DNA of 64,000 bases from a virus. Each line of letters begins with the position of its first letter. Position 1 is the first letter of the stretch. A program made the position numbers and the translations under genes. Under the pieces are notes generated by a model that searched no databases, was not told where the DNA came from, and saw nothing but the letters and a program-made list of their open reading frames with translations. Location: the IMG/VR virus record IMGVR_UViG_3300020538_000004, positions 1 through 64,000 of that record. One strand, 5' to 3'. Of this stretch, positions 19,968-62,871 are shown one piece after another.

Positions 19968-20348
19968 ATGATGCTTGAGGTCTTGCTGAACGAACCGGAT
20001 GATTTTTTAAAAGTACGCGAGACGCTGACCCGAATTGGAGTCGCCTCGCGAAAGACCACAAACAAGCTTTATCAGTCTTGCCATATTCTTCATAAGCAGG
20101 GACGTTATTTTATTGTTCATTTTAAGGAATTATTCCTTCTTGACGGCAAGCCCTCAAATTTAAATACGAACGATTTGCAGAGACGTAACACCATCACTAC
20201 TCTTCTCTCGGACTGGGGTTTAGTTTCAATTGTGAACAACGATCAGGCCAAAGATAAAGCTCCGTTACGTCAGATCAAGATTATCCCACACCGAGACAAG
20301 ATAAATTGGGAATTGTTAGCAAAATATTCAATCGGTAATACGAAGTGA
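19968..20348 (+). CDS. regA: RegA translational repressor
   Basis: T4 RegA (122 residues) binds the start regions of early mRNAs. From ATG 19968 the product is 126 residues, and MLEVLLNEPDDFLKVRETLTR aligns straight with the T4 N-terminus; SCHILHKQGRYFIVHFKELF is the family core. The frame is open 29 codons further upstream to a GTG at 19881 inside the gp62 gene, so an N-terminal extension cannot be ruled out. Confidence 0.92.
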   Translation: MMLEVLLNEPDDFLKVRETLTRIGVASRKTTNKLYQSCHILHKQGRYFIVHFKELFLLDGKPSNLNTNDLQRRNTITTLLSDWGLVSIVNNDQAKDKAPLRQIKIIPHRDKINWELLAKYSIGNTK

Positions 20349-20356
20349 TATAAATA
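20349..20356 (+). promoter_or_regulatory. Late promoter TATAAATA before hsp20
   Basis: An exact TATAAATA starts right after the regA stop codon. It places the small heat shock gene under late control, with an 85-nt leader. Confidence 0.75.
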
Positions 20357-20444
20357 ACCTTGATGGCAATCACGCCATCAACCGGTAATGCCCTTCGGGG
20401 GTTGCTGGAGATTACATAACCTTGCATAACTGGAGGTAAATCAG
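20357..20444 (+). promoter_or_regulatory. Structured 5' leader of hsp20
   Basis: TTGATGGC/GCCATCAA form an 8-bp stem with a 6-nt loop. Next comes a longer hairpin closed by a C(TTCG)G tetraloop, from CCGGTAATGCCC to GGGGTTGCTGG. ACCT then can pair with the AGGT of a strong Shine-Dalgarno (GGAGG), the only clear one in this part of the window. The layout suggests regulated translation, possibly thermosensing. Confidence 0.5.
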
Positions 20445-20861
20445 ATGACAAATACATACACGTTCCCACGGTCAGCCTTTGTAGGCTTTGACCATCTTTT
20501 CAACGAGCTCAACAGAGTCTCCTTAAAAGAAGATACATACCCACCGCATAATATCGTTTTCATTGATGACGATAATTTCTTGGTGGAAATCGCCGTTGCA
20601 GGATTCTCTAAGGAGAACCTCGATATTCAGCTAAAGGATTCTGTCCTTACTGTTAGCGGTGAGATGGAAGACGATCGAGTCTACAACCATAAGGGCATTT
20701 CGACCCGTAAGTTCACGAGAACTTTCACGTTGTCGGAATACGTTCAAGTAAAAGGTGCAGACCTTAAGAATGGAATCCTTTCGATTCCACTCGCCAAGGT
20801 CGTTCCAGAATCAGAACGTCCAAAGAAGATTGAGATTGGCTCAACTTTCATCCAGGACTAA
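20445..20861 (+). CDS. hsp20: Hsp20/IbpA small heat shock protein
   Basis: This 138-residue alpha-crystallin-domain chaperone has the N-terminal FVGFDHLFNEL, the core VEIAVAGFSKENLDIQLKD and L-T-V-S-G strand, the ARTF-like RTFTLSEYVQVKGADLKNGI and a C-terminal K-K-I-E-I tail. Such genes are common in T4-like cyanophages and relatives, probably to aid virion protein folding. It has its own late promoter, a structured leader with a strong Shine-Dalgarno and a terminator, so it behaves as an independent cassette. Confidence 0.93.
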   Translation: MTNTYTFPRSAFVGFDHLFNELNRVSLKEDTYPPHNIVFIDDDNFLVEIAVAGFSKENLDIQLKDSVLTVSGEMEDDRVYNHKGISTRKFTRTFTLSEYVQVKGADLKNGILSIPLAKVVPESERPKKIEIGSTFIQD

Positions 20862-20882
20862 TTAACTCTTAGTTAGTCTTAC

Positions 20883-20916
20883 AAGAGTGGTGACTTTCAC
20901 GTTACCACTCTTTTTT
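20883..20916 (+). terminator. Terminator after hsp20
   Basis: AAGAGTGGTGAC (20883-20894) pairs with GTTACCACTCTT (20901-20912) in a 12-bp stem with two G-T pairs at most, then a T-run. Confidence 0.92.
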
Positions 20917-20917
20917 A

Positions 20918-20945
20918 TTTACAAACCCCGATTATGTGATAGGAT
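20918..20945 (+). promoter_or_regulatory. Early promoter for DNA polymerase
   Basis: TTTACA (20918-20923), a 16-nt spacer and TAGGAT (20940-20945). The GTG start at 20952 is 6 nt beyond the -10, so translation would begin at the 5' end of the mRNA. Confidence 0.75.
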
Positions 20946-20951
20946 GGTAAT

Positions 20952-23477
20952 GTGAAATTCTATACCAATGTGAGCAGATGGGGTTCGCACATCCTTTATC
21001 GGGGCTATGATAATGGTAAGCGCGTAACCGAACGTGTGAAGTTTAAGCCCACCATGTATCTCCCTTCGAAGCATGAGAAAACCATCTGGACTGCGCTGGA
21101 TGGCACTCCGGTTGAGCCCATGATGTTTGATTCTATGAAGGATGCTAAAGAATTCATGGCTCCTTACGAGAACATTGAATCCTTTAAGATCTATGGAAAC
21201 ACTCGTTACGTTGCGCAATTTATTCAAGAACGTTTTCCTGATGAAATCCACTTTGATCGTAGTGTCATTAATGTTTCCACCCTCGACATCGAGGTAATGT
21301 CGAATGATGGCTTTCCAAAGCCCGAAGATGCGCTGCACGAAATTATCACCATCACGGTTAAAAATAGCATCGATGATGTCTATTACGTATGGGGCACGAA
21401 ACCATATGACGCTGACAAAAAGCTAATTCATTCTCAGGTTGAATATCGTCAATTTGTTGATGAGCGTTCAATGATGCTGGATTTTGTAACATGGTTCGCC
21501 ATGCCAAAAAACAATCCTGACATTATCACGGGCTGGAATAGTCGTGGCTTCGATATTCCGTATATCGTAAATCGAATCATTTCAATATGTGGTCAGGAGA
21601 CTGTGAATCTTCTTTCTCCCTTTGGCAAAGTAGAACCCAAAGAAACCATGATCAAAGGTCGTCCGATGAAGATCTACGAGATTACTGGTATCTCTCAGTT
21701 AGACTACATGGATCTATTCAAGAAGTTTACGACTCACACGTATGGTAATCAAGAATCCTATAAGTTAGGTCATATTGCACACGTTGTTCTTGGAGATGGA
21801 AAGTTGTCGTATGAGGAATATGGTTCCCTGCATAACCTTTACGAGGAGAACTATCAAACCTTCGTGGACTACAACATCAAAGACGTTGAGATTGTGGATC
21901 GTCTCGAAGACAAACTAGGTCTCATTACTTTAGTTCTCACGCTTGCTTACATTGGCGGCGTGAATTACAATGATACGCTTGGAACCACAGCAATCTGGGA
22001 TTCAATCATATATCGAGATCTTGCCCGTAAGGCAATTGCAATCCCACCATCCGTTGAAAACTTTAAGGGCGATTATCCTGGCGGTTATGTGAAAGAACCA
22101 AAAGTGGGTCTACATAATTGGGTATGTTCATTCGACTTAAATTCTCTGTATCCGAATCTCATCATTCAATACAACATGTCACCCGAGACGATCACGTCTC
22201 AGACGACTCCGGGTATTTCCCCTGACGTGATCCTGAATGATGTACCATTTGAACCTCATATGCCCGGAACCATTATGGCTGCAAATGGTGTTCATTTCCG
22301 TACAGATAAAATCGGCGTAATCCCTCGAATCATCGCTGAGATCTACGACAAGCGTGTTATCCTAAAGAAAGCCATGCTTCAAGAAAAGAAGCGTCTCGAG
22401 ACGATCGATAAAGGTAACAAGGTTGAGTATTTTAAATGTGAACGAGAAATCTCTCGTCTCGAGAATCAGCAGATTGCAGTTAAAATTCTTCTCAACTCAC
22501 TCTACGGCGCCCTGGGCAATCAGTACTTTCGGTATTTCGACATGCGAATTGCCGAGGCAACAACTCTATCAGGCCAATTGGCAATCCGTTGGGCTGAAAA
22601 GGAAGTGAATCAATTCTTAAATAAAACCCTCAAATCGAAAGACAAAGATTATGTTATCGCTATCGATACTGACTCATTATATGTCTCAATGGATCCAATC
22701 GTTCAAAACTTTGGTCCTAAGAATCCTGTTAAGTTCTTGGATGAATTTTGTGCAAAGGCTGTCGAGCCTATGCTAACTGCATCCTACGATCTGTTGTCGA
22801 AGACAATGTTCTGTCCAACAAATCGTATGGGAATGAAGCGTGAGGCAATTGCGGATCGTGGTATTTGGACAGCAAAGAAGCGTTATATCCTTAACGTTCA
22901 CAATAACGAAGGTGTTCAATACGCTAAACCCAAGATCAAGATCATGGGAATCGAAGCGGTAAAATCTTCAACTCCAGCAGTATGCCGTGATGCCCTAAAG
23001 AAGATGTTCGAGGTTATTATGACCAAATCCGAAGTCGAAGCTCAACGTGAAATTGTAAAAATCCGTGAGAACTTCATTTCATTGCCACCTGAGGAGATTG
23101 CGTTCCCGCGTGGAGCCTCGGATGTTTCAGGTTATTCGAACAAGAAAGAAGGTGGAATTTACAAGAAAGGAACTCCGATCCATGTTCGCGGCTGCTTGCT
23201 TTTCAATGATCAAGTTGTGAAGTGTAATCTGCAAAAGAAACATCAACTAATTCGTAGCGGTGATAAGATCAAATTCATCTATCTTAAAACTCCAAACCCG
23301 ATGCAAGAAAATGTAATTTCTTTTGTGGATGGTCTTCCAAAAGAATTGGGTCTGCATAGATATATTGATCACGAGCTTCAGTTTGAGAAAACCTTCCTGG
23401 ATCCTTTATCCATCATCTTTGATTCAATTGGATGGACCATGGAGAAAACCTCGAATCTTGAAGAATTCTTCACTTAA
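20952..23477 (+). CDS. 43: Family B DNA polymerase gp43
   Basis: The 841-residue polymerase is a little shorter than T4 gp43 (898). The start is GTG, since the overlapping ATG at 20950 meets a stop at once. Exonuclease motifs are T-L-D-I-E-V, ITGWNSRGFDIPYI and the later Y-N-I-K-D-V. Polymerase motifs are FDLNSLYPNLII (A), KILLNSLYGALGN (B) and AIDTDSLYVSM (C). The C-terminus LEEFFT is a likely gp45 clamp-binding tail. An early promoter abuts the gene. Confidence 0.97.
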   Translation: MKFYTNVSRWGSHILYRGYDNGKRVTERVKFKPTMYLPSKHEKTIWTALDGTPVEPMMFDSMKDAKEFMAPYENIESFKIYGNTRYVAQFIQERFPDEIHFDRSVINVSTLDIEVMSNDGFPKPEDALHEIITITVKNSIDDVYYVWGTKPYDADKKLIHSQVEYRQFVDERSMMLDFVTWFAMPKNNPDIITGWNSRGFDIPYIVNRIISICGQETVNLLSPFGKVEPKETMIKGRPMKIYEITGISQLDYMDLFKKFTTHTYGNQESYKLGHIAHVVLGDGKLSYEEYGSLHNLYEENYQTFVDYNIKDVEIVDRLEDKLGLITLVLTLAYIGGVNYNDTLGTTAIWDSIIYRDLARKAIAIPPSVENFKGDYPGGYVKEPKVGLHNWVCSFDLNSLYPNLIIQYNMSPETITSQTTPGISPDVILNDVPFEPHMPGTIMAANGVHFRTDKIGVIPRIIAEIYDKRVILKKAMLQEKKRLETIDKGNKVEYFKCEREISRLENQQIAVKILLNSLYGALGNQYFRYFDMRIAEATTLSGQLAIRWAEKEVNQFLNKTLKSKDKDYVIAIDTDSLYVSMDPIVQNFGPKNPVKFLDEFCAKAVEPMLTASYDLLSKTMFCPTNRMGMKREAIADRGIWTAKKRYILNVHNNEGVQYAKPKIKIMGIEAVKSSTPAVCRDALKKMFEVIMTKSEVEAQREIVKIRENFISLPPEEIAFPRGASDVSGYSNKKEGGIYKKGTPIHVRGCLLFNDQVVKCNLQKKHQLIRSGDKIKFIYLKTPNPMQENVISFVDGLPKELGLHRYIDHELQFEKTFLDPLSIIFDSIGWTMEKTSNLEEFFT

Positions 23478-23480
23478 GTG

Positions 23481-23509
23481 TTTACAATAAACGTCAGCTG
23501 AATTATTAT
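23481..23509 (+). promoter_or_regulatory. Probable promoter before the MazG-like gene
   Basis: TTTACA (23481-23486) and TATTAT (23504-23509) at a 17-nt spacing, just after the polymerase stop and before the ATG at 23516. Confidence 0.5.
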
Positions 23510-23515
23510 TAACTT

Positions 23516-23920
23516 ATGAAAACTAATTGGGTACATGACATTGAATATATGCATCGCAAATTTGGAGTAAATCCAATCGTACGTGAATTCGACAAGGAAA
23601 AGCTTAAGGCTTTCCTGGAGTTTCGCATTAAGTTCTTGCAAGAAGAACTCGATGAAATGAAGAAAGCAGACAATGCTGATGATGTGGTTGATGCACTCAT
23701 CGATCTTTGCGTTGTTGCCATCGGCACACTCAACGCTTTTGATGTTGATTCTGAAAAAGCCTGGGCTGCGGTATATGAAGCGAACATCGCTAAACAAGTA
23801 GGAGTAAAAGAGTCTCGGCCAAATCCATTGGGTCTTCCAGATCTAATTAAGCCTCAAGGTTGGACTGCACCATCTCACGCAGATAACGTAGGATTGCTTG
23901 GACCTATTTTCACCGATTGA
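23516..23920 (+). CDS. MazG-like nucleotide pyrophosphohydrolase
   Basis: This 134-residue all-alpha NTP pyrophosphatase has FLQEELDEMKKADNADDVVD followed by A-L-I-D-L, giving the E-E-x-x-E and D-D-x-x-D metal-binding pattern. Such enzymes trim dNTP pools. Given the dCMP-hydroxymethylase-like gene nearby, it is a candidate for the dCTP-removing job of T4 gp56, which is inference. Its C-terminus VGLLGPIFTD is an unusual tail. The stop overlaps the next start. Confidence 0.75.
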   Translation: MKTNWVHDIEYMHRKFGVNPIVREFDKEKLKAFLEFRIKFLQEELDEMKKADNADDVVDALIDLCVVAIGTLNAFDVDSEKAWAAVYEANIAKQVGVKESRPNPLGLPDLIKPQGWTAPSHADNVGLLGPIFTD

Positions 23921-24867
23921 ACTATTCACTCACAGTATTTGATTCCATCTTTGACAATAAGACGGATAAGCTAGTAGTCTGTCAATCTTGGGCGGACTTT
24001 GAAAAGTTGCTTTTCATGCTTTCAAGATTGCCAGGCTATAAGGCTAAAAGGGGTGAGACGAAGAAATCATCTTCTCTCATTTCTCCAGCAGTCTATGCCA
24101 AAGGTGGAACTCGATCCAACGCCAATGTAACGTCCTGGGGTGGTTGGGCTGCATTGGATGTGGACGAATATGAGTGCTCATTTGCAGATGCAGTAAAGGT
24201 GTATTCTCAGTACAAGCATATTTGTTATTCGACTGCGTCATCTCGTCCAGACAAAAAGAAGTTTCGAATCGTATTTCAATTGAACAAGGAAGTACCTCCT
24301 GATAAAATTCGTCATTTTTGGTATGCCCTGAATAAGCATTTTAATTCTATGGCGGATGAGCAGACGAAAGATCTGAGCCGGATGTATTACGTTCCTGCGC
24401 AATATCCAGATGCTGATAATTTTATCGTGGTTCGGTCCGGTGAGATCATGGATCCAGACCAGATTATGGCAATGCATCCATTCAGCGAAAAGCCATCTCA
24501 GAGTTTCATTGATAAGCTTCCATCCAACATTCAGAAAGAAATTCTGAATCATCGGAAAGAACAACTGAACAATAACTCTGTAAGCTGGTCATCCTATACC
24601 GATTGTCCTTTTGTGAATAAAAAGCTGATCAATGAGTACAAGACAATCTCATCGATTGATGGCTCTGGAAGATACCGCATGATCTACAAAATCATGTCGA
24701 GTATTGCGTGCAATGCAGTGAAGCGCAAATATCCTATTACCGCATCGCAGATTGCAGAAATGATCCGCGGTCTCGATAGCGATACCTCTAGGCTTTATCA
24801 AAAACGACCATTGAATGTGGAAGCTGAACGTGCCATTGAGTTTGCCTACAAGAGTGTCATGCTCTAG
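23917..24867 (+). CDS. Putative primase-like (AEP-type) protein
   Basis: This 316-residue protein starts with TTG overlapping the upstream stop. The N-terminal half resembles archaeo-eukaryotic primase/polymerase domains: W-A-A-L-D-V-D-E-Y (motif I, D-x-D), CYSTASSRPDKKKFRIVFQL (the block that is THSH...R-x-R in many phage primases) and DLSRMYYVPAQYPD. The C-terminal part (about 220-316) is helical and resembles a primase-C-terminal type region. The usual motif II histidine is replaced, so activity is uncertain. No gp61-type primase is seen in this window, although the gp41 helicase is. Confidence 0.55.
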   Translation: MNYSLTVFDSIFDNKTDKLVVCQSWADFEKLLFMLSRLPGYKAKRGETKKSSSLISPAVYAKGGTRSNANVTSWGGWAALDVDEYECSFADAVKVYSQYKHICYSTASSRPDKKKFRIVFQLNKEVPPDKIRHFWYALNKHFNSMADEQTKDLSRMYYVPAQYPDADNFIVVRSGEIMDPDQIMAMHPFSEKPSQSFIDKLPSNIQKEILNHRKEQLNNNSVSWSSYTDCPFVNKKLINEYKTISSIDGSGRYRMIYKIMSSIACNAVKRKYPITASQIAEMIRGLDSDTSRLYQKRPLNVEAERAIEFAYKSVML

Positions 24868-24868
24868 C

Positions 24869-24923
24869 ATCAACACTTTAGGTAATTTTTAGTGCTTTAC
24901 TTTTTAAGGCCTAAGTGTATGAT
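24869..24923 (+). promoter_or_regulatory. Boxed early promoter for the modification island
   Basis: Box ATCAACACTTTAGG (24869-24882), TTTACT (24896-24901) exactly 27 nt from box start, a 16-nt spacer and TATGAT (24918-24923). ATG 24932 follows 8 nt later. Confidence 0.8.
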
Positions 24924-24931
24924 TGTATTGA

Positions 24932-25402
24932 ATGCAGAACGCTATCACATTTAAGAAATCCGATATCGACCAACAGTCGTTATATTCCCGCGCCTCAAAA
25001 GAGGCAAAACGGATCCATGAGGATCCGAGTCCTGCAGTGCATCAGGATCGTACGTTTGATGAAATTCTAAAGCAGTGCCTACGTGGCCACTACGCTGAGC
25101 TATGGCTTATGGCGCAAGGTTACGTGGACGATGATCGAAAATACAAAGATCTGTATGAGCCTGATGGCATCACATCGATTGACGTGAAGGTTACAACCTG
25201 CGCTGCAAATTGCAGGAACGTATTGCAGGGAATGGCAGATAAAATTGCCCGAGGTATTCCGGTGGCACGACGAATTTACATTTTCTTGAATCCCATGGAT
25301 TCTGATGAGTATGAATTCTATGGAATATGGAACTGGAATGGTTCATCTTTTATTGGCTCTCGTCCACAATTTACTGTACAAACTGCTATAACTAGTGTAT
25401 GA
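24932..25402 (+). CDS. Putative PD-(D/E)XK nuclease-like protein
   Basis: This 156-residue protein has GHYAELWLMAQGY, then L-Y-E-P-D-G-I-x4-D-V-K-V-T. The Glu on a helix, the Asp and the D-V-K strand fit a degenerate restriction-endonuclease-like core. A C-terminal YEFYGIWNWNGSSF strand pair follows. It is the first gene of the modification island and might act on unmodified DNA. The family is not recognised with certainty. Confidence 0.45.
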   Translation: MQNAITFKKSDIDQQSLYSRASKEAKRIHEDPSPAVHQDRTFDEILKQCLRGHYAELWLMAQGYVDDDRKYKDLYEPDGITSIDVKVTTCAANCRNVLQGMADKIARGIPVARRIYIFLNPMDSDEYEFYGIWNWNGSSFIGSRPQFTVQTAITSV

Positions 25403-25403
25403 T
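25375..25403 (+). promoter_or_regulatory. Possible internal promoter
   Basis: TGTACA (25375-25380), a 17-nt spacer and TATGAT (25398-25403), overlapping the end of the preceding gene and 12 bp before ATG 25416. Confidence 0.45.
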
Positions 25404-25415
25404 TATCTCTTTATT

Positions 25416-25766
25416 ATGAAAGAATCCATCAAAGTCCTCCAAGAGTGTGCAGATCTGCAACTCAAAAAGTCCAACGATTATCAGAATCCAAATAGTACGA
25501 TTCGTCAAGCTGATTATTATCCACGCGGTGCTGCGTCAATCCTTGACATCATGAACACAAAGGTGCTGCGTCTTCGTTCTGTCCTTGAGGCAATGGAGAA
25601 TGATGCAAACTATGCACCTAATTTCGATTCCCTTGAAGACTCTGCAAAGGATCTCATTAACTATTCATCCTTCTTTGTGTCATTCTGCCGTAAAGGTATT
25701 GACGGCCAGCGCACTGATCGTGACTTTCTTAACCGCCATCTCAATGCTAAATCTACCCAGAGTTAA
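25416..25766 (+). CDS. NMAD1/DUF1599-like protein (nucleotide modification associated)
   Basis: I place the start at ATG 25416, after the promoter-like sequence, giving 116 residues. The pattern CADLQLKKSNDYQNPNSTIR, ILDIMNTKVLRLRSVLEAM and DSAKDLINYSSFFVSF is that of DUF1599, an all-alpha fold named for association with base-modification genes. It overlaps the hydroxymethylase gene by 23 bp. Context and pattern agree; the substrate is unknown. Confidence 0.65.
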   Translation: MKESIKVLQECADLQLKKSNDYQNPNSTIRQADYYPRGAASILDIMNTKVLRLRSVLEAMENDANYAPNFDSLEDSAKDLINYSSFFVSFCRKGIDGQRTDRDFLNRHLNAKSTQS

Positions 25767-26421
25767 TGATATTCGTCAGCATTTTAAAGATGCTCTAACG
25801 AATGGTGCCTATGTGACAGACAAGAGTGGTGTTAAAACACTCGAGTTATGTGGCGCATCATTCTTTGCAGATGAAGAAGCCATCTTTGGCAAACCAAATT
25901 ATGAGTACATCAATGCTGAACTTCAATGGTATGATTCCCAGTCGTTGAATGTCAATGATATTCCTGGCGGTGCTCCTAAGATCTGGAAACAAGTTGCAAC
26001 GAAAGATGGCTGGATTAATTCAAACTATGGCTGGTGCATCTACTCAGAAACCAATTATAAGCAATATAATTCTGCGCGAAATGAGCTTATTGCAAATCCA
26101 AATAGTCGCAGAGCCATAATGATCTATACTCGGCCAGAGATGCACCAGCATTATTGCGAAGATGGCTGTTCCGATTTCATGTGCACGAATGCTGTGCAAT
26201 ATCTTATTCGAGACAATAAACTTCATGCCATCGTCCAAATGCGAAGCAATGATGTTGTCTTCGGTTATAAGAATGATCGTGCCTGGCAATACATAGTACA
26301 AACCCGCCTTCTGCAAGATCTAAACACGCTCGGAGAAAATAATTATGAAATGGGAGACCTCATCTGGCACGTCGGCTCGCTCCACGTCTATGAACGGCAC
26401 TTCACACTTATTAATGGATAA
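25744..26421 (+). CDS. 42: Deoxypyrimidine hydroxymethylase, dCMP type (gp42-like)
   Basis: This 225-residue enzyme belongs to the thymidylate synthase superfamily. The catalytic cysteine is Cys147 (FMCTNAVQYLIRDNKL), followed by MRSNDVVFGYKND. Asp178 stands where thymidylate synthase has the uracil-binding Asn; T4 dCMP hydroxymethylase uses Cys148 and Asp179, so both residues and their 31-residue spacing agree. This favours making 5-hydroxymethyl-dCMP rather than dTMP. A separate ThyX is encoded at 35910. ATG 25744 is chosen because upstream sequence reads as a shadow of the preceding gene. Confidence 0.8.
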   Translation: MLNLPRVNDIRQHFKDALTNGAYVTDKSGVKTLELCGASFFADEEAIFGKPNYEYINAELQWYDSQSLNVNDIPGGAPKIWKQVATKDGWINSNYGWCIYSETNYKQYNSARNELIANPNSRRAIMIYTRPEMHQHYCEDGCSDFMCTNAVQYLIRDNKLHAIVQMRSNDVVFGYKNDRAWQYIVQTRLLQDLNTLGENNYEMGDLIWHVGSLHVYERHFTLING

Positions 26422-26860
26422 TAAGTGGAAAGGTCGCTACCTTAAGTTAGCACGAGAGATTGCTGGATGGTCGAAAGATCCATCCACAAAAATCGGATGT
26501 GTCATCATTGGGTCGAAGGGTCAGGTACTAGCTCAGGGCTATAATGGTTTCCCACGTGGAATCCAAGATACTCCGGATCGGTATGCTGATCGTCCGACGA
26601 AGTACAAATATGTGGTTCATGCAGAAATGAATGCCATCTACAACGCAAGTTATAGTGGCGTCTCGCTTGATGGATCCATTTTGTTTGTGCATGGATTGCC
26701 AGTTTGCTCTGAATGTGCAAAAGGCATCATCCAAGTTGGAATTAAAAACATCGTTATGCCATGGCAGGAAATACCTGCAACGTGGCAAGAGTCGTGGAAT
26801 CTGACTCAGCAGATGTTCACTGAAGCAGGTATTACCTGGGAATTTGTCAAATTCGAATAA
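26414..26860 (+). CDS. cd: dCMP deaminase
   Basis: This 148-residue zinc deaminase supplies dUMP from dCMP. The active site is VVHAEMNAIYNA (His69-Ala-Glu71) with VCSECAKG (Cys98 and Cys101). GYNGFPRGIQDTPDRY is the substrate-side block common to dCMP deaminases. The start at ATG 26414 overlaps the end of the hydroxymethylase gene by 8 bp. With ThyX and the ribonucleotide reductase it completes a dTMP route. Confidence 0.92.
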   Translation: MDNKWKGRYLKLAREIAGWSKDPSTKIGCVIIGSKGQVLAQGYNGFPRGIQDTPDRYADRPTKYKYVVHAEMNAIYNASYSGVSLDGSILFVHGLPVCSECAKGIIQVGIKNIVMPWQEIPATWQESWNLTQQMFTEAGITWEFVKFE

Positions 26861-26863
26861 TTT

Positions 26864-28027
26864 ATGAGTCTTTCAACTACACACTATTACGATGAATTCC
26901 TTCGCTACTATCAATTAGCAAAGGATCAACAGGAGAAATGCAACGTTTCATCTAGACCTCCTTATGGGATGCTTACTCATGCCGAGTCTAAAATGGGTGA
27001 TGCTTTGCTTGAAAATGTTGAGCTCTACGATGTGGTTGAACGTAAATTTGCTGGATTCTCGCAGATCGTGAATGATTGCTTTTATGGTTGGAATGCAGAT
27101 CACCCCTATTGGATGAAGATGTCATCAGGAAACCATACTGCGCAACGTAAGACTGTGGCCACGAGTTGGAATGGAAAGAAGTTCACTCTTGCAGAATGGA
27201 TGTACGTATTCATTCTTCACCGCGTAACAGGTTCTGCCATCAATTATGCAACCAAACCATCCGGTTACCATAATACGTTATTGTTCAAGCTTCATACTGC
27301 TTCTTCAATTCCAGAGATGACGGAAATCGTGAAAGCCGAGAAGTCTCCGTTTTACACTTCAGTTGGATACCAGTTTCCTGCATTTCCAAAACCACCCGCA
27401 GGTTATAAACGTGGTGGCGATTACTACCTCTGCGAATTTGCTCCACGTTTGGCCACTGAGCTTGCAGATTTTTTAGTTGCTGGAAACAAAAAGACACTTC
27501 GCGAAATTGGCGAATTCATGTTGAGCTGGAATCAAGCAAATGGAATGCGTAGGTTTGCTTTCCAATATGCAGCAGTTGTTGCTGACGTTGCTGATTGGTT
27601 TCCTCAGTATGTCCATCGGGATACCCCATTTTACTATGGTTCAAATGCTGTTGAATGTATTTCATATCTTGCAGTTCCAAACAAAAAGATGAAGACCGAG
27701 GCTTTCCTCGATCTTGTCATGGAGAAAATTCAATCTGATACCGGAGCATTCCCTTATAACGCAGAAGACGTGTGCTGTGATTTCATCCGTTGGGTTGAAA
27801 ACTACGTTCGTCCAGGCTCTGCATATAATCATCTGGACAGAGATAATCTTTGGTCATCACATCGTATTCACGACCATCCCTATGGCCGGCAGAAGCCGAT
27901 GCTCGAGCTCGGTCTCATTAAGTCGTTTAACGATCTCGATGTACACCCATCAGACGACTATGTCATTAGCCGCGCTGGAGTCACGGCAGAAAAATATAAG
28001 GAACTATGCAAAACATGTACACAGTAA
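26864..28027 (+). CDS. Possible amino-acid:DNA transferase-like protein of a base-modification pathway
   Basis: This 387-residue mostly helical protein contains WMYVFILHRVTGSAINYATK followed by P-S-G-Y-H-N-T, a block I associate with the helical (HhH-glycosylase-related) enzymes that attach amino acids to activated hydroxymethyl bases. Aromatic-rich segments and FGxx-type turns (FPAFPKPPAGYKRGGDYYLC) follow, and the end has HRIHDHPYGR. It lies directly between a dCMP deaminase and a PLP enzyme, which fits such a pathway. The family call is from memory and tentative. Confidence 0.45.
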   Translation: MSLSTTHYYDEFLRYYQLAKDQQEKCNVSSRPPYGMLTHAESKMGDALLENVELYDVVERKFAGFSQIVNDCFYGWNADHPYWMKMSSGNHTAQRKTVATSWNGKKFTLAEWMYVFILHRVTGSAINYATKPSGYHNTLLFKLHTASSIPEMTEIVKAEKSPFYTSVGYQFPAFPKPPAGYKRGGDYYLCEFAPRLATELADFLVAGNKKTLREIGEFMLSWNQANGMRRFAFQYAAVVADVADWFPQYVHRDTPFYYGSNAVECISYLAVPNKKMKTEAFLDLVMEKIQSDTGAFPYNAEDVCCDFIRWVENYVRPGSAYNHLDRDNLWSSHRIHDHPYGRQKPMLELGLIKSFNDLDVHPSDDYVISRAGVTAEKYKELCKTCTQ

Positions 28028-28953
28028 CTCAAGACACATCTAACAAGGATATTCCGAAAGGGATGTCGCGTAGCCAGGCAAAAGAGTATTATCAAAACTT
28101 GTGGGGGACGTTCAATACTCGAATCGATCCTCCAGTTGTTGAACAGTTCGGAGACAAATACATCCTTAGAGCAGATTTTGCTCCGGGTGGATTAAAGGCA
28201 TTCGGCGGAGAACGAGTTATTGCTGAAACTCCTAAGGATACTTTAGTCTACTGTGCACCGCGGCAGGGTCACGCTCCGGATGCCATCGCCATGTTGGCTC
28301 AGATGTATAATAAGAAATGTGTTTTCTTTTGTCCAGCTTCATCTGAAGTATCGAATCATCAAGGTGCTCTTTTTGCCTATGCACATACAGACATGCGATT
28401 CTTTAAGATTGCTGCAATGCCAGTATTGAATTCCTATGCGAAAAAATGGGCAGAAAAGAATAATGCTCAGTATCTTCCATTTGGTCTTACTGGAAATGCA
28501 ACAGTGACTGCTGGACTTGCAAACATGGCTAATATGGTTACTAATTTAATTGGGCATGAACCTTCTGAAATTTGGTGTGCTGTATCAACAGGCACAATGG
28601 TTCGGGCACTTCAAATTGGCTGGCCAAATGCAAAAGCCTACGGGGTTGCAGTTGCTCGAAATATCCATGATGGTGAAATTGGCGATGCTGAAGTTGTAAC
28701 GGCAACTATGCCTTTCCTTAAAGCTCATCCGATTGCAAATGAAATGCCGTTCCCAACAACTGCGGCATATGACGCAAAAGCATGGGAAGGGTTTGTAAAA
28801 AAAGGAAAACCAGGAGCAATCTTTATAAATGTGGGTGCGGATGCACACATTAACCGCAATCTATCTAAAGTGGATATTTCAAAAATTAATAGCCAGCGTA
28901 AATGGAAAGATCTCGGGGATATGGAAGAGAATCGCGCTTATTTTAAATCATGA
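28006..28953 (+). CDS. PLP-dependent fold-type-II enzyme-like protein
   Basis: This 315-residue protein resembles the tryptophan-synthase-beta/ACC-deaminase class: FAPGGLKAFGGERV with Lys64 as the likely PLP lysine, SNHQGALFAYA (the QSNH-type helix), PFGLTGNATVTAGLANMANM and the phosphate-binding-like VSTGTM. In known phage base hypermodification pathways a PLP enzyme edits an amino acid joined to the base. Its overlap with both neighbours (22 bp and 4 bp) supports one operon. The substrate is unknown. Confidence 0.6.
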   Translation: MQNMYTVTQDTSNKDIPKGMSRSQAKEYYQNLWGTFNTRIDPPVVEQFGDKYILRADFAPGGLKAFGGERVIAETPKDTLVYCAPRQGHAPDAIAMLAQMYNKKCVFFCPASSEVSNHQGALFAYAHTDMRFFKIAAMPVLNSYAKKWAEKNNAQYLPFGLTGNATVTAGLANMANMVTNLIGHEPSEIWCAVSTGTMVRALQIGWPNAKAYGVAVARNIHDGEIGDAEVVTATMPFLKAHPIANEMPFPTTAAYDAKAWEGFVKKGKPGAIFINVGADAHINRNLSKVDISKINSQRKWKDLGDMEENRAYFKS

Positions 28954-29948
28954 AAGTCTTAATCACTACACCGATGGCTCCAATCTCGGAGCGGATTTCA
29001 TCGCATCGTGCCGCGCAGGCTGCAATCTATGCTGATCAACTTAAATGCATGGGATACGATGTTACCGTCAACCATGGTGGCAAGATTAAGGATTACAATG
29101 CATTTGATACGATTGCAGTCTATCATGGGAATGATTGGGGCGGTACTGTCAATATGTTTGGAGGCGTCAAGCAATTTGGTGCAATTGACCAGATTGTCCG
29201 TTTGTCCAAGTTCACTGGTAAAGTCCTTTCCCTCACAATTGATTTCCCAAAATACTCTGAGATGATTAAACCCCGGGTTGATAAAGAACCAGCATCGCAT
29301 CCAGATTGGAAACTAGTCGACTGGATTAATCTGGCCCGGATTGAAACATCTGCGACGGTAATCAACACGGATCTTGAATTAGAAAGCGCAAAACTGGCAA
29401 TCGGAGATTCTCATGCTCTTTCCATGTATCGCCCAGGATGGAAACTGAATTGCGTCCCATATAAAACTCTTTATGGTGCTATCACTTCGGGTCTCAAATC
29501 TTTTGTATTACCAAATAAACTGAAGTACGATGAGATTGAAGTGTACTTCGGAAACATTGACATTCGCCATCATCTGCTTCGTCAGAGTAATCCTGAGGCA
29601 GCTACTCGAGATCTTGTTGCTGGATATGTTCAGCAATGTGAGGATCTTGCAAAGACGTGTAACTGCAAAGTGACAATCTGGGAACCTCTACCAATTGAAA
29701 ACGAGTCTCGCAAATTGCCAAAGACTGGCTATTACAAGGGAACTCCATTCTATGGTACCTGGAATGAACGCAATGATATTCGAAATCTCTTCGTTGAACA
29801 GCTTCATAAGAATGCCAAAGGCAATGTCAAGGTGTTTGAATGGATTTCAAAGCTAATGAATCTCAAAGGCGAATTAGATTTTGCCTGCATGGAAAAACCA
29901 CAATCTGTTCATTTATCCAGAGAATTTTATCCTCACTGGAATCAATAA
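28950..29948 (+). CDS. GDSH-motif protein of the modification island
   Basis: This 332-residue protein begins KVLITTPMAPISERISSHRA with the look of a nucleotide or sugar-binding Rossmann start (VYHGNDWGGTVNMFGG). Later it has an SGNH-hydrolase-like block: IGDSHALSMYRPGW (Ser154), GNIDIRHHLLR (Asn then Arg/His), and a C-terminal SVHLSREFYPHW with a possible catalytic His. A transferase or esterase acting on a modified base or its precursor is one idea. The family is not recognised. It ends the island; uvsX follows with its own control region. Confidence 0.55.
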   Translation: MKVLITTPMAPISERISSHRAAQAAIYADQLKCMGYDVTVNHGGKIKDYNAFDTIAVYHGNDWGGTVNMFGGVKQFGAIDQIVRLSKFTGKVLSLTIDFPKYSEMIKPRVDKEPASHPDWKLVDWINLARIETSATVINTDLELESAKLAIGDSHALSMYRPGWKLNCVPYKTLYGAITSGLKSFVLPNKLKYDEIEVYFGNIDIRHHLLRQSNPEAATRDLVAGYVQQCEDLAKTCNCKVTIWEPLPIENESRKLPKTGYYKGTPFYGTWNERNDIRNLFVEQLHKNAKGNVKVFEWISKLMNLKGELDFACMEKPQSVHLSREFYPHWNQ

Positions 29949-29967
29949 AAGATGTACAGGATCAATC

Positions 29968-29982
29968 AACTATAGTATAGTT
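29968..29982 (+). promoter_or_regulatory. Perfect dyad upstream of uvsX
   Basis: AACTATA (29968-29974) G TATAGTT (29976-29982) is a perfect 7-bp inverted repeat overlapping the likely -10 (TATAGT) just before ATG 29988. It may be an operator. Confidence 0.5.
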
Positions 29983-29987
29983 CTATT

Positions 29988-31034
29988 ATGTCATCACTAC
30001 TCGCAAAATTAAAAAAGAATTCACGAATTGATACCGCTGCAACCTTGGATGATTCTAAGGTTTTCAATCAAAGCGAAAGCATCGCAACAGACGTTCCTAT
30101 GATTAACGTTGCCCTTTCCGGAGACCTTGACAAAGGTCTCACATCGGGTCTTACGGTCCTTGCTGGTCCATCGAAGCACTTCAAGACTTCATTCGCACTC
30201 ATCATGGTTGCTGCGTATATGCGCAAATATCCTGAATCCGTTGTGCTGTTCTATGATTCTGAATTTGGTTCTCCTCAGTCCTATTTCAAGACCTTTGGCA
30301 TTGATACGAGCCGAGTTCTTCATTGTCCAATCTTGAATGTTGAAGATCTCAAATTCGACATCATGAAGCAGCTTGACGGTATTGAGAAGACTGACAAGGT
30401 CATCATCATGATTGACTCTGTGGGTAATCTTGCTTCGAAGAAAGAAGTTGAGGATGCAATGAATGAGAAGTCTGTGGGTGATATGACTCGTGCAAAAGCT
30501 TTTAAGAGTCTTTTCCGCATGGTCACACCACACCTTGCAATGAAAGATATTCCTCTTGTTGCAATTGGTCATACGTACAAGACGCAGGACATGTATCCGA
30601 AGGATGTTCTCTCGGGCGGCACGGGTCTTTATTACTCTGCCAATACCGTATGGATTCTTGGTCGTCAGCAAGACAAGGGTGATGAAGGCATTGAGGGTTA
30701 TCACTTCGTGATCAACGTTGACAAGTCTCGTTTCGTAAAAGAAAAGTCCAAGGTTCCTATCTCAGTCTCGTTTGCAAATGGCGTTGAGAAGTATTCGGGC
30801 CTTCTCGACGTTGCCCTTGAGGGCGGATTTGTTACAAAGCCTTCTATGGGCTGGTATGCAAAGAAAGGTGATGAGACAAAGTATCGTGAAAAGGATACCT
30901 ATAACAAAGAATTCTGGAATGGAATCTTAGACTCGAAAGAGTTCAAGGCATACATTCGTCAACGCTATACCCTCGGAGTCGATGGTCAAAGCAACACCAG
31001 CAACATTTCAATTATTGATGAAGATGAATCCTAA
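29988..31034 (+). CDS. uvsX: UvsX recombinase (RecA-like)
   Basis: This 348-residue strand-exchange protein is somewhat shorter than T4 UvsX (391). Features are Walker A GPSKHFKT (60-67), LFYDSEFGSPQSYF, Walker B VIIMIDSVGNLASKKE, and the SVGDMTRAKAFKSLFRMVTP block. It works with UvsY (6988), UvsW, gp46 and gp47. The 3' end overlaps the next gene by 11 bp. Confidence 0.96.
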   Translation: MSSLLAKLKKNSRIDTAATLDDSKVFNQSESIATDVPMINVALSGDLDKGLTSGLTVLAGPSKHFKTSFALIMVAAYMRKYPESVVLFYDSEFGSPQSYFKTFGIDTSRVLHCPILNVEDLKFDIMKQLDGIEKTDKVIIMIDSVGNLASKKEVEDAMNEKSVGDMTRAKAFKSLFRMVTPHLAMKDIPLVAIGHTYKTQDMYPKDVLSGGTGLYYSANTVWILGRQQDKGDEGIEGYHFVINVDKSRFVKEKSKVPISVSFANGVEKYSGLLDVALEGGFVTKPSMGWYAKKGDETKYREKDTYNKEFWNGILDSKEFKAYIRQRYTLGVDGQSNTSNISIIDEDES

Positions 31035-31374
31035 AATTACTGACAGCGATTATTCTTTTGTTGAAAAGCCAACTTCCGAATTGTATTCGGTGAAGCTGAA
31101 AACTGGCCAATGGTCTGGCGTCATTGTTACCTATGGAAAGGTTTCCTTAAAGGTCAACGAAGACAAAGAATCAGCCACCCTTTCTTTTCAATTCAAGGTC
31201 GATGAATCTCCGGCTCCACAGACCGTAGAAATACTTGAAGAATCAAACGACTTCAATAACCATCTCGGCGACATTCTTAGCCACATTATTCAAAACGCTT
31301 TCGATACTGGTAATTATAAATTAGGGTCTAATGACAAACAACCTACAAACGACAATCCTTCAGAAACTAGTTAA
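31024..31374 (+). CDS. Small conserved protein between uvsX and gp41
   Basis: This 116-residue protein starts at ATG 31024 inside the last codons of uvsX and its 3' end overlaps the helicase gene start by 44 bp. The visible pattern is a small beta-sheet (ELYSVKLKTGQWSGVIVTYG, LKVNEDKESATLSFQFKVDE) and a helix with FNNHLGDILSHII. The family is not recognised. Tight overlaps imply cotranslation with replication proteins. Confidence 0.65.
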   Translation: MNPKITDSDYSFVEKPTSELYSVKLKTGQWSGVIVTYGKVSLKVNEDKESATLSFQFKVDESPAPQTVEILEESNDFNNHLGDILSHIIQNAFDTGNYKLGSNDKQPTNDNPSETS

Positions 31375-32695
31375 TGATGAGCAATACTGCAGAAAAGTAT
31401 TGCCATTCATTAAGTCTGAGTATTTTGAGGGTTCTCATAAGTCAGTCTACAAACTCGTCCTGGATTTTATTGCCAAGTACAATAAACTTCCTACGCAGAC
31501 GAGCCTTGGCATTGATCTTGACAAGACTGACATTCGAGAGGATCAATACGATTCTACAGTCAAACTTATTGAATCTCTCAGTGAGAATCCCAAAGTTGAA
31601 GACCTATGGCTAATCGAGAATACGGAAAAATGGTGTAAGGACCGTGCCGTATTCTTGGCCATTATGGAATCGATTCAGATCATCGATGGCAAGAAGAAAG
31701 ATATTGGCCAAGGTGCAATTCCAGACATCCTTCAAAAGGCTCTTGGAATCAACTTTGACAATTCTGTGGGTCACGATTACATCGGTGACTTTGAGGATCG
31801 GTTCGACTTCTATCACAAGGTGGAAGATCGTACTCCATTCGATCTCGAGATGTTCAATGCCATTACCAAGAATGGAGTTCCACGTAAGACGTTGAATATC
31901 TGTCTTGCCGGCACGGGCGTGGGAAAGTCCCTCTTCATGTGTCATGTGGCTTCTTCGTATCTGACACAGGGTAAGAATGTGCTGTACATCACGCTAGAAA
32001 TGTCAGAAGAACGCATCGCTGAACGTATCGATGCGAATCTAATGAATATCCCAATTGATCAACTTGCAAGTCTTCCAAAGGACTTGTACGAGAGCAAGAT
32101 CAAGAAGATTGCTGCAAAGACTGTAGGATCTTTAATCATCAAGGAATATCCAACTGCATCTGCACATGCTGGTCATTTCCGTGCTCTTTTGAATGAACTT
32201 AAGCTGAAGAAGGATTTTACTCCTGACGTCATCTTTATTGACTATCTTAACATCTGTGCTTCTTCTCGTATGAAAGGCGTGGGAGGTTCAATCAATACCT
32301 ACTCATTCATCAAGGCTATTGCGGAAGAAATTCGTGGTCTTGCTGTGGAATTCAATGTTCCAATCTTCTCTGCGACTCAGACAACTCGTAGTGGATTCGG
32401 CAATAGCGATGTTGAACTGACTGACACCTCAGAATCCTTTGGTCTTCCTGCAACGGCAGATCTCATGTTTGCCCTCATCTCAACTGAAGAACTTGAAAAG
32501 ATGGGACAACTTATTGTCAAACAGTTAAAAAACCGGTATAACGATCCAACCAAGAATAAGCGTTTTATCATTGGAGTTGATCGTGCCAAGATGAAACTGT
32601 TTGATGTTGAAAACAAAGCTCAGACTTTAAGCAAAGAACCAACTGTCCGTAGTGGTACTCAGGAGAGGAACTTTAACGGATTTAAAATCGAATAA
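31331..32695 (+). CDS. 41: Replicative DNA helicase gp41 (DnaB-like)
   Basis: This 454-residue hexameric helicase is close to T4 gp41 (475). The N-terminal helical domain is followed by the RecA-like motor: Walker A GTGVGKS (194-200), LYITLEMSEERIAERIDANLM, Walker B VIFIDYLNIC, and the sensor FSATQTTRSG and an R-Y-N-D-P-T-K-N loop. It would unwind ahead of gp43. No T4-type gp61 primase gene accompanies it in this window. Confidence 0.95.
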   Translation: MTNNLQTTILQKLVNDEQYCRKVLPFIKSEYFEGSHKSVYKLVLDFIAKYNKLPTQTSLGIDLDKTDIREDQYDSTVKLIESLSENPKVEDLWLIENTEKWCKDRAVFLAIMESIQIIDGKKKDIGQGAIPDILQKALGINFDNSVGHDYIGDFEDRFDFYHKVEDRTPFDLEMFNAITKNGVPRKTLNICLAGTGVGKSLFMCHVASSYLTQGKNVLYITLEMSEERIAERIDANLMNIPIDQLASLPKDLYESKIKKIAAKTVGSLIIKEYPTASAHAGHFRALLNELKLKKDFTPDVIFIDYLNICASSRMKGVGGSINTYSFIKAIAEEIRGLAVEFNVPIFSATQTTRSGFGNSDVELTDTSESFGLPATADLMFALISTEELEKMGQLIVKQLKNRYNDPTKNKRFIIGVDRAKMKLFDVENKAQTLSKEPTVRSGTQERNFNGFKIE

Positions 32696-61657: not shown

Positions 61658-61733
61658 GCCCTTGTAGCTCAGTTGGTAGAGCACCAGTTTTGTAAACTGG
61701 TTGTCGTCGGTTCGATCCCGTCCGAGGGCTCCA
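61658..61733 (+). tRNA. tRNA-Thr(TGT)
   Basis: A full cloverleaf of 76 nt with encoded CCA: acceptor GCCCTTG/CGAGGGC, D-arm TAGCTCAGTTGGTAGAGCA, anticodon arm CCAGT-TTTGTAA-ACTGG, T-loop TTCGATC. Confidence 0.97.
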
Positions 61734-61739
61734 TTTTAA

Positions 61740-61829
61740 GGAAGGGTGGCTGAGTGGTTTAAGGCGCTAGTCTTGAAAACTTGAGTCGCCTAAAAACGAC
61801 CGTGGGTTCGAATCCCACCCCTTCCTCCA
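61740..61829 (+). tRNA. tRNA-Ser(TGA)
   Basis: A 90-nt class II tRNA with long variable arm and encoded CCA. Acceptor GGAAGGG/CCCTTCC; anticodon loop CTTGAAA with stem CTAGT/ACTTG carrying one T-T mismatch; T-loop TTCGAAT. Confidence 0.93.
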
Positions 61830-61834
61830 ATTTA

Positions 61835-61924
61835 GGAAATATGGCCGAGTGGTTTAAGGCAAGACTTTGCTAAAGTCTCGGGTCCTCAAAAGCCCCGAAG
61901 GTTCGAATCCTTCTATTTCCGCCA
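61835..61924 (+). tRNA. tRNA-Ser(GCT)
   Basis: A 90-nt class II tRNA with CCA. Acceptor GGAAATA/TATTTCC; anticodon arm AGACT-TTGCTAA-AGTCT; long variable arm; T-loop TTCGAAT. Confidence 0.96.
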
Positions 61925-61929
61925 TTTTC

Positions 61930-61966
61930 GGTCTAGTAGCTCAGTTGGTTAGAGCATCGTCTACCT
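61930..61966 (+). pseudogene. 5' half of a tRNA gene, interrupted
   Basis: GGTCTAG, a normal D-arm (TAGCTCAGTTGGTTAGAGC) and the 5' side of an anticodon stem (about ATCGTC) are present. The sequence then runs into a homing-endonuclease-like gene. No matching 3' half (CTAGACC) is found before tRNA-Ile. The isotype cannot be told. Confidence 0.75.
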
Positions 61967-61967
61967 C

Positions 61968-61975
61968 TATAAATA
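61968..61975 (+). promoter_or_regulatory. TATAAATA at the insertion junction
   Basis: An exact late-promoter motif just after the broken tRNA and 5 bp before ATG 61981. It could make the inserted gene late-expressed. Confidence 0.5.
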
Positions 61976-61980
61976 GATTA

Positions 61981-62586
61981 ATGCCCAAAGGTAAAACAAC
62001 AACATCTATTTGTCCTAAATGTGGAAATGCCGTATCGCTTTTCGCATTCAATCGTCATTTAAAGTGGCACGATAAACCTAAAGTCATTAAACCTAAAGTA
62101 GAGAGGGTTGCATGGAATAAAGGTAAAACTGTATTGTCCGATGTTAGATGTTTTAGACCAAAAACTGGTCCCGGTACAGGAACTGCGCATACTCAAGAAA
62201 CTAAATCACTATTATCAAAAATAGCAAAAGATCGAGGTTTAGGTGGTTACCAACCTTTGGCTGGAAGAAGTAAAAAATTTAAAGTAAATGATTCATATGG
62301 TAATGAAGTTACACTACAGAGTACATATGAATTAAGATGTAGTTCATTATTAAATGAATTGAATATAAAATGGATTCGACCGAAATCATTAAAATACAAC
62401 AATAAAAGATATTTTGCTGATTTCTATCTAACAGAATATGATTTATATTTAGATCCTAAAAACGATTATAAAGCCATTTTGGATGCAGAAAAAATACAAT
62501 TAGCAGCAAAACAGAATTCTGTAAAAATAATCATTCTTTTAAATAAAGATATAAATGTGGAATATATTAAAAGCCTTTGTAGTTAA
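61981..62586 (+). CDS. Homing-endonuclease-like protein inserted in the tRNA cluster
   Basis: This 201-residue protein has a zinc-finger start (CPKCGNAVSLFAFNRHLKWH), a NUMOD3-like element (VAWNKGKT, then A-H-T-Q-E-T-K-S-L-L-S-K) and a nuclease-like core: T-Y-E-L-R-C, RYFADFYLTEYDLYLDPKND. The pattern fits phage homing nucleases with a PD-(D/E)XK-type or EDxHD-type site. The gene is visibly more AT-rich than its neighbours. Its last 14 bases overlap tRNA-Ile. It most likely invaded a tRNA gene and removed its 3' half. Confidence 0.75.
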   Translation: MPKGKTTTSICPKCGNAVSLFAFNRHLKWHDKPKVIKPKVERVAWNKGKTVLSDVRCFRPKTGPGTGTAHTQETKSLLSKIAKDRGLGGYQPLAGRSKKFKVNDSYGNEVTLQSTYELRCSSLLNELNIKWIRPKSLKYNNKRYFADFYLTEYDLYLDPKNDYKAILDAEKIQLAAKQNSVKIIILLNKDINVEYIKSLCS

Positions 62587-62646
62587 ACGGTATAACCAGC
62601 GCTTGATAAGCGCTAGTCACAAGTTCGATTCTTGTCGAAGGCACCA
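62573..62646 (+). tRNA. tRNA-Ile(GAT)
   Basis: A 74-nt cloverleaf with CCA. Acceptor GCCTTTG/CGAAGGC, anticodon arm AGCGC-TTGATAA-GCGCT, T-loop TTCGATT. Its 5' end is also the 3' end of the endonuclease gene. Confidence 0.95.
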
Positions 62647-62651
62647 GTTTT

Positions 62652-62726
62652 GCGGTATAGGTGTTAATGGATACACGCGAGTTTTCCAAACTTGAGTTCT
62701 GGGATCGTTACCCGGATACCGCTCCA
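62652..62726 (+). tRNA. tRNA-Gly(TCC)
   Basis: A 75-nt cloverleaf with CCA. Acceptor GCGGTAT/ATACCGC; anticodon arm CGAGT-TTTCCAA-ACTTG; T-arm CTGGG-ATCGTTA-CCCGG, with A in place of the usual T54. Confidence 0.85.
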
Positions 62727-62741
62727 TTTTGCAAACGCCAC

Positions 62742-62780: not shown

Positions 62781-62782
62781 TC

Positions 62783-62868: not shown

Positions 62869-62871
62869 TTT

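Follow-up and report, generated by a model that had tools for sequence, protein, structure and literature searches.

Which base does an uncultivated T4-like phage make with a seven-gene operon that lies between its DNA polymerase and UvsX genes? The operon occupies positions 24932 to 29948 (+ strand) of a 64-kb window, the whole stretch of DNA analyzed here, which was taken out of the 66,998-base IMG/VR virus record IMGVR_UViG_3300020538_000004. A longer record of 140,053 bases (G001) contains the window at 99.98% identity across all 64,000 bases; 140,000 of its bases were analyzed, and the record may be incomplete. The core of the window looks T4-like: two open reading frames (ORFs) recognized by eye resemble a family-B polymerase (upstream) and a helicase (downstream), and UvsX and 11 tRNA genes are also present. 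The operon most likely converts hydroxymethylated cytosines to bulkier bases, and an esterase-like enzyme may stand in for the kinase of known pathways. The whole statement, namely, that the operon provides 5-hydroxymethylcytosine (hmC), goes on to hypermodify it, and forms a modular platform with swappable partners, seems to us about evenly poised between right and wrong. The parts of it that sequence comparison supports are a T4-type hydroxymethylase, the family of a pyridoxal phosphate (PLP) enzyme, an SGNH fold, a fixed gene unit, and a search in which no known base kinase was found.

Starting base and a conserved gene unit

The hydroxymethylase (25744..26421, +) matches the thymidylate synthase family PF00303 over the cut-off (E = 7e-17) and PHROG 160 (E = 3e-54), with 58.7% identity to T4 gp42 versus 25.5% to RB69p048. 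It carries the motifs SDFMC, with the catalytic Cys, and SNDVVFGYKND, in which the Asp of YKND stands at a position where the dUMP-type enzyme of the thymidine-hypermodifying M6 system differs. This Asp takes the position of the dUMP-binding Asn. The pattern [YF][KR]ND fits 46 of the 58 hydroxymethylase homologs in related loci; the other 12 fall outside it. A preliminary description of the locus, made from the sequence alone, had noted that the enzyme looks dCMP specific, and both the gp42-type identity and the KND motif agree with this. We also considered a 5-hydroxy-dCMP synthase of the RB69 type, taking RB69p048 to be that enzyme, and rejected this identity at only 25.5%. Because the hydroxymethylase is T4 gp42-type by family, unlike RB69p048, the starting base is likely hmC. 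A report on RB69-type phages describes a hydroxymethylase homolog that makes 5-hydroxy-dCMP (PMC13390438).

All seven overlapping or closely spaced ORFs of the preliminary description were recovered on the + strand, with three starts corrected. For the hydroxymethylase, the most likely start is ATG 25744 instead of the listed 25585, and the deaminase (26345..26860, +; PF00383, E = 1.6e-18; PHROG 174, E = 1e-41) probably begins, judging by its relatives, near ATG 26414 rather than at 26345. All NCBIfam matches of these two enzymes were below the cut-off. The third correction moves the NMAD1/MazG-like all-alpha protein (25417..25766, +) from GTG 25395 to ATG 25417, as its relatives begin with MKES or MRES. 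This protein matches PHROG 18404 (“hydrolase”; E = 1e-11) and, below the cut-off, DUF1599/NMAD1 (E = 0.014) and is perhaps a nucleotide pyrophosphohydrolase. Homology to T4 gp56 was considered and dropped after a profile comparison gave no clear similarity.

The PLP fold-II enzyme (28006..28953, +; here called 28006) had been recognized in the preliminary description, and to judge from its sequence, it is a member of the M6 hypermodification PLP family. It matches PHROG 7093 (E = 3e-73), to which M6 gp52 belongs, and PALP below that family's cut-off (E = 5e-4). Profile alignment with the M6 PLP family by hhalign (∼98%; E = 1e-13 to 1e-14) brings the PLP lysines together (GTK with SFSK) and shows a shared C-terminal signature, PFP..YD.KAW...FWN.G. 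The lysine, K64, is invariant in 22 aligned sequences. The PLP enzymes of M6-like cassettes are decarboxylases. The window enzyme shares only 37 to 38% identity with those of loci L006 to L010, whose neighboring 26864-like and SGNH proteins are 78 to 97% identical to those of the window, and 74% identity with that of L056, so PLP subfamilies have been swapped within the unit. In Erythrobacter phage R6L, a PLP domain of the 28006 family is fused to an N6/N4 DNA methylase (gp1; L057:8810-11239), and in Microcystis phage Mae-JY30, the PLP gene is separate from but adjoins such a methylase gene.

The all-helical protein 26864 (26864..28027, +), the PLP enzyme, and the SGNH protein 28950 (28950..29948, +) form a fixed unit, which in many relatives includes AADT2, a helical paralog of 26864. 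Loci were fetched from IMG/VR with 26864 (51 loci), AADT2 (the best 80 of 419 relatives), and 28950 (the best 80 of at least 582), and gene families were counted by profile hidden Markov models; loci with too little flank were dropped, and some of those counted are near-identical. The helical, PLP, and SGNH genes occur together in all 24 of the 26864-fetched loci with at least 4 kb downstream, 10 of which also carry AADT2. Among the loci fetched by the 28950 alignment, 23 had at least 3.5 kb on both sides; a 26864-like gene and a PLP gene are present in 23/23, the hydroxymethylase in 19, a small gene resembling uracil-DNA glycosylase (UDG) in 15, the deaminase in 12, and AADT2 in 12. AADT2-fetched loci with such flanks contain a 26864-like gene in 27 of 32 cases and both PLP and SGNH genes in 25 of 32. 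We also assembled 132 nonredundant loci, requiring at least two core genes and dropping repeats of another locus's PLP/SGNH pair. Here, we counted PLP genes in 128 loci, SGNH in 125, 26864-like in 115, AADT2 in 84, hydroxymethylase in 62, deaminase in 55, NMAD1-like in 45, UDG-like in 44, and PD-(D/E)XK-like in 10; contig ends truncate many of these loci, and fetching with AADT2 inflates the tally for that gene. Neither AADT2 nor the UDG-like gene is present in the window or its 140-kb relative.

Gene order varies across loci, and the gene set stays together. A minimal order of SGNH, 26864-like, PLP, and hydroxymethylase genes was found in seven of nine new divergent loci, the other two ending inside or after the PLP gene. 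Compared with L009, 26864 (nonsynonymous divergence [dN], 0.051; synonymous divergence [dS], 0.92) and 28950 (dN, 0.133; dS, 1.49) are under purifying selection. The deaminase, and the PLP gene compared with L056, have no dN/dS ratio because dS is saturated. A search through 84,980 genomes of bacteria and archaea turned up four contigs, all from metagenome bins. Other genes accompany the unit in places. The UDG-superfamily-like protein (PF03167, E = 0.0015, below the cut-off) is encoded just before the 26864-like gene at L017:7570-8001 and in many relatives. A GT-A gene (Anp1-like, E = 0.006, below the cut-off), for example, at L148:2922-3806, lies near the unit in 54 of 207 26864-type loci; at an E value of 1e-5, nothing in the window matches it.

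An SGNH protein with changing partners

The third member of the unit, 28950, belongs to PHROGs 13881/17781, whose function is unassigned. An AlphaFold2 (AF2) model from a 53-sequence alignment (A5) has a mean predicted local distance difference test (pLDDT) score of 90.2, and residues 139 to 331 adopt an SGNH fold (Z = 13.4 to 2hsj over 166 residues; root mean square deviation [RMSD], 2.8); sialate O-acetylesterase and the peptidoglycan O-acetyltransferase PatB are found lower among the fold matches. The motifs are GDSH (152 to 155), GNID (201 to 204), and SVH (319 to 321). In an alignment of 185 proteins, from which identical, short, and weakly matching proteins were dropped, S154 is conserved in 185, G201 in 184, N202 in 166, and H321 in 183 (the other 2 are gaps). 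The Asp of the canonical triad (DxxH) is absent, position 318 being K, Q, S, or G in 178 of the 185, which leaves a possible Ser-His dyad.

The N-terminal domain is Rossmann-like and resembles T4 β-glucosyltransferase (BGT) (Foldseek to 1qkj, E = 1.1e-3; hhalign, 64.6%, E = 6e-5). The hhalign alignment places D98 of 28950 opposite Asp100, the catalytic base of BGT; a catalytic role for D98 is only suggested. In BGT, the N-terminal domain handles the hmC acceptor. The Pfam model for T4 BGT (PF09198) stays below its cut-off of 27 bits for both 28950 (E = 0.071, 13.3 bits) and its relative in L014 (13.9 bits). A glycosyltransferase assignment by Pfam alone was rejected on this subthreshold E value and on the SGNH nature of the C-terminal domain.

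The SGNH protein also occurs in Aeromonas phages 44RR, 31, and 25 and in at least 582 IMG/VR stretches. In 44RR, ORF233c consists of the SGNH protein (residues 1 to 336, E = 1e-122; 34.9% identity to 28950) fused to a C-terminal domain that scores 17.2 bits against HMUDK_hel, below the cut-off of 25; relatives of this domain pass (29.6 bits in L261). All five inositol-type contigs tested pass the HMUDK_hel cut-off (one only with a neighboring match) versus none of nine 26864-type contigs. Of 60 loci with an HMUDK-helical-family domain, 59 have the SGNH gene and 59 have an inositol-1-phosphate synthase gene. The sole locus of the 60 that lacks the synthase is 44RR, where a sodium:solute symporter is encoded next door; that it carries inositol is a guess. 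A single synthase query (E = 1e-5) found no match in the available DNA of 207 26864-type and 40 M6-type loci. A representative arrangement among L259 to L318 is L261:3939-8606, with the synthase, a small HAD-like protein (present in 56 of 60), the HMUDK-helical-family protein, and the SGNH protein. The window operon and the 44RR module have the SGNH protein in common and differ in its partner, which is an HMUDK-helical-type domain accompanied by inositol-phosphate synthase in relatives and by the symporter in 44RR. The inositol-type module suggests an inositol-decorated cytosine, with 44RR as an isolate of a related type.

In Aeromonas phage 25 (L258:1776-5047), the genes for a UDP-galactopyranose mutase and an unassigned 358-amino-acid protein directly precede the SGNH gene, an arrangement shared by two further contigs, which suggests a galactofuranose-type decoration. 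Since three partner sets (26864/PLP, inositol-type, and phage 25) share it, the SGNH protein is the constant part, and its partners vary. The preliminary description had flagged 28950 as a GDSH-motif protein; the SGNH domain proves real in its fold and in its conserved catalytic Ser and His. That description had missed the BGT-like N-terminal domain, the second helical partner (10/24 and 12/23 loci), and the inositol-type sister module. Petrov et al. credit 44RR, 31, and 25 with genes 42 and 56 and no glucosyltransferase gene, with gene 42 stated for 44RR itself, and leave open other modifications of hydroxymethylated cytosine in such phages (PMC2993671). A homolog of C5-cytosine methylases with a CPCAGLS motif is encoded just after the SGNH gene at L261:9205-10419 (where a small ORF separates the two), L035:11124-12332, and L316:8851-10065; 17 of the 60 inositol-type loci carry it, as do 9 of the 207 26864-type loci.

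Proposed pathway and competing readings

Known hypermodification of the M6 kind uses the HMUDK kinase, and we searched for it. PF18748 matched none of nine 26864-type contigs over its cut-off (one weak subthreshold match) and had no match in eight inositol-type contigs; in M6-type control contigs, three of six passed the cut-off and five of six had any match. A kinase profile built from M6-type loci matches 38 of 40 such loci, its own kind by construction, and found nothing among the ORFs of the 140-kb record or in 60 inositol-type loci. Inspection by eye of the nine ORFs of the 140-kb record that have Walker-A-like motifs revealed no small P-loop kinase in this possibly incomplete sequence. 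The earlier remark that no base kinase is seen in the window therefore extends to its near-identical 140-kb record.

Protein 26864 had been described as possibly AADT-like (amino acid:DNA transferase-like). It has no Pfam or PHROG match and no assigned family, and tblastn against GenBank phages found no match. Its AF2 model (30-sequence alignment) is nearly all helical. The best viral structural match, in BFVD, is a 61% relative that bears the label “amino acid:DNA transferase domain-containing.” The best solved folds are a helix-hairpin-helix 8-oxoguanine glycosylase and the queuosine-salvage protein DUF2419 (Z of ∼8; RMSD of ∼6), which are middling matches; the solved ADDT entries 8z2m and 25qc are not among the 50 structure matches listed for the model. 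Membership of the Pfam ADDT family failed in every sequence test. None of 30 members of the 26864 family matched PF18724 up to an E value of 10, and no ORF of nine contigs passed its cut-off, the one weak match (13.6 bits, in the L129 contig) lying away from the unit. Comparisons of 26864 and its paralog with the M6 ADDT and HMUDK_hel families by hhalign were negative, even when deepened with divergent members, and solved-structure searches with A1 (26864) and A4 found no relative. The 26864-like and AADT2 families are weakly similar to each other (79.1%, E = 1.6e-5, or 41.4%, E = 2.7e-4, depending on direction). We do not file 26864 as an ADDT; it may still function like one, a case that draws on fold class, neighbors, and the M6 parallel.

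In the pathway that we propose, the deaminase, the NMAD1/MazG-like protein, and the hydroxymethylase would shape the nucleotide pool, and hydroxymethyl-dCMP would be raised to the triphosphate by some kinase and built into DNA. After replication, 28950 would grip hmC by its BGT-like domain, and its Ser-His site would act on the 5-hydroxymethyl oxygen, most simply by acyl transfer. This step would either decorate the hydroxyl or, in lieu of the missing base kinase, make it a leaving group. Protein 26864, joined in many relatives by the second helical partner, would install an amino-acid-type nucleophile on hmC, and 28006 would trim the DNA-bound amino acid, probably by decarboxylation. We infer every reaction past hmC, the order of the reactions, and the donor of the SGNH domain; an amino-acid-derived decoration is the best reading for the window, its chemistry being part of that proposal. 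A more specific version holds that the SGNH enzyme has replaced the base kinase: the BGT-like domain would present hmC, the SGNH site would esterify the 5-hydroxymethyl group into a leaving group, and interchangeable helical enzymes would swap nucleophiles (a PLP-trimmed amino acid in the window and myo-inositol in 44RR-type phages). We consider that version unlikely to be correct as it stands.

Several points weigh against the proposed pathway. No amino-acid-supply gene was recognized among the operon ORFs, and no dNMP kinase was recognized in the 140-kb record, which may be incomplete. SGNH enzymes are usually hydrolases, so the fold is just as compatible with hydrolysis or with decoration at a late stage. 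Of the 185 SGNH proteins, only 145 have an acidic residue at the D98 position, and those of phages 25 and PTm1 lack it. Seven of the 32 AADT2-fetched loci lack PLP and SGNH genes nearby; two of these contigs carry both elsewhere, and five do not in the available sequence. The lack of PF18748 matches is weak evidence because the control missed the cut-off in three of six contigs. The model of 26864 is of middling quality (pLDDT, 70.6), and neither it nor its paralog matches Pfam ADDT or HMUDK_hel by sequence or profile. Finally, with only 37 to 38% identity, the reaction of the window PLP enzyme may differ from that of its close relatives in L006 to L010.

The alternatives overlap with this best explanation, so that the chances we attach to them are not parts of one whole. 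The SGNH protein could be a finishing enzyme that acylates or de-acylates the completed side chain after some other activation for amino-acid transfer. Its fold relatives, which include PatB and sialate O-acetylesterase, are what one would expect of such an enzyme, and phage 25 pairs the SGNH gene with UDP-galactopyranose mutase and an unassigned protein; the group decorated there would be a sugar and not an amino acid. However, the BGT-like domain, given the part that it plays in BGT, and the constancy of the SGNH protein across three partner sets fit a shared early step better, and we regard a finishing role as somewhat unlikely. The same BGT-like domain can be turned toward glycosylation or some other sugar decoration of hmC, in which case the helical and PLP proteins would have nothing to do with DNA-bound amino acids and might, for example, help to make an amino-sugar donor. 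Sister modules with inositol-phosphate synthase or UDP-galactopyranose mutase and the GT-A-like gene of 54/207 loci point the same way. This sugar-based explanation has to contend with an operon in which no glycosyltransferase was recognized, with the SGNH half of 28950, with the GT-A gene lacking a match in the window, and with a PLP enzyme that groups with M6 gp52; we hold it to be improbable.

It could also be that virion DNA contains only hmC or plain cytosine and that the trio of helical, PLP, and SGNH proteins works in counter-defense or in other metabolism during infection. Hypermodification here is predicted from genes, 26864 has no assigned family, and amino-acid metabolism makes wide use of PLP fold-II enzymes. 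Against this stand the hydroxymethylase linkage (19 of 23 loci), the position in the polymerase-UvsX slot, and the PLP family itself, which belongs to a DNA-modification cassette and has related domains that are joined to a DNA methylase (R6L) or adjacent to one (Mae-JY30). We rate this alternative as quite unlikely.

Related systems and neighboring genes

The preferred reading, hypermodification of hmC, can be set beside known systems. A study of M6-like cassettes lists a hydroxymethylase, Nmad5, two aGPT-PPlase proteins, a nucleotide kinase, a radical SAM enzyme, and a PLP enzyme (PMC9476957). Like M6 thymidine hypermodification (5-NedU), the window and its relatives combine a thymidylate-synthase-type hydroxymethylase with a PHROG 7093 PLP enzyme and, in many relatives, two all-helical proteins. 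The window differs in that the base would be cytosine, the SGNH/BGT-like protein is present and HMUDK kinase was not found, no radical SAM enzyme is among the family matches of the operon, and the helical proteins have no detectable sequence homology. With T4 hmC glucosylation (gp42 and BGT), the operon shares the dCMP hydroxymethylase, the BGT-like N-terminal domain, and the slot between polymerase (20952..23477, +; recognized by eye) and UvsX (29988..31034, +; PHROG 97, E = 8e-83), where T4 gene 42 and b-gt also sit. In contrast to T4, an SGNH domain takes the place of the second glycosyltransferase domain in the C-terminal half of 28950, and the operon has PLP and helical enzymes in addition. 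In RB69, most arabinosylation genes lie in this slot according to one report (PMC8056088).

An amino-acid-derived cytosine had been presented as new chemistry, which is too strong. 5cxmC-glycine, an amino-acid-linked cytosine in phage DNA, was published in 2025, and CmoA/CmoX/CmoY form it by means of a homolog of methyltransferases dependent on carboxy-S-adenosylmethionine (Cx-SAM) and an AMP-forming ligase, neither type being among the family matches of the window operon (PMC12783734). The two systems would therefore share an amino acid on cytosine and differ in enzymes. Searches by title and start of abstract returned no literature on inositol with hmC or on SGNH proteins with hypermodification; a mention in a 2013 computational survey or in the 2018 and 2021 hypermodification papers is possible. 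Under the version with the SGNH enzyme in place of the base kinase, many T4-like phages would share one modular platform for cytosine hypermodification. If the inferred chemistry is right, it adds a kinase-free way to activate a DNA base and perhaps cytosines derived from amino acids and from inositol. This would bear on phage resistance to restriction and CRISPR and on DNA-labeling chemistry. Phages 44RR, 31, and 25 are already in collections, and the partner genes of their SGNH proteins differ by group.

The first ORF of the operon encodes a PD-(D/E)XK-nuclease-like protein of 156 amino acids (24932..25402, +), which has no match in Pfam, PHROG, or NCBIfam; PADLOC links it weakly to type II restriction enzymes (REase_II, E = 0.0025). 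It had been counted as part of the pathway; with a homolog in just 10 of 132 loci, it is not a steady member and is possibly an accessory gene whose product degrades unmodified DNA. A defense-system reading of the operon was rejected, as PADLOC matches are limited to this protein and to residues 62 to 114 of the deaminase (dCTP-deaminase model, E = 1e-19). An Rfam scan of positions 20000 to 32000 gave no match. Between a MazG-like gene and the operon lies a gene for a primase-like protein (23917-24867; PHROG 9765, E = 2e-61), and the 11 tRNA genes form a cluster at positions 61658 to 63654.

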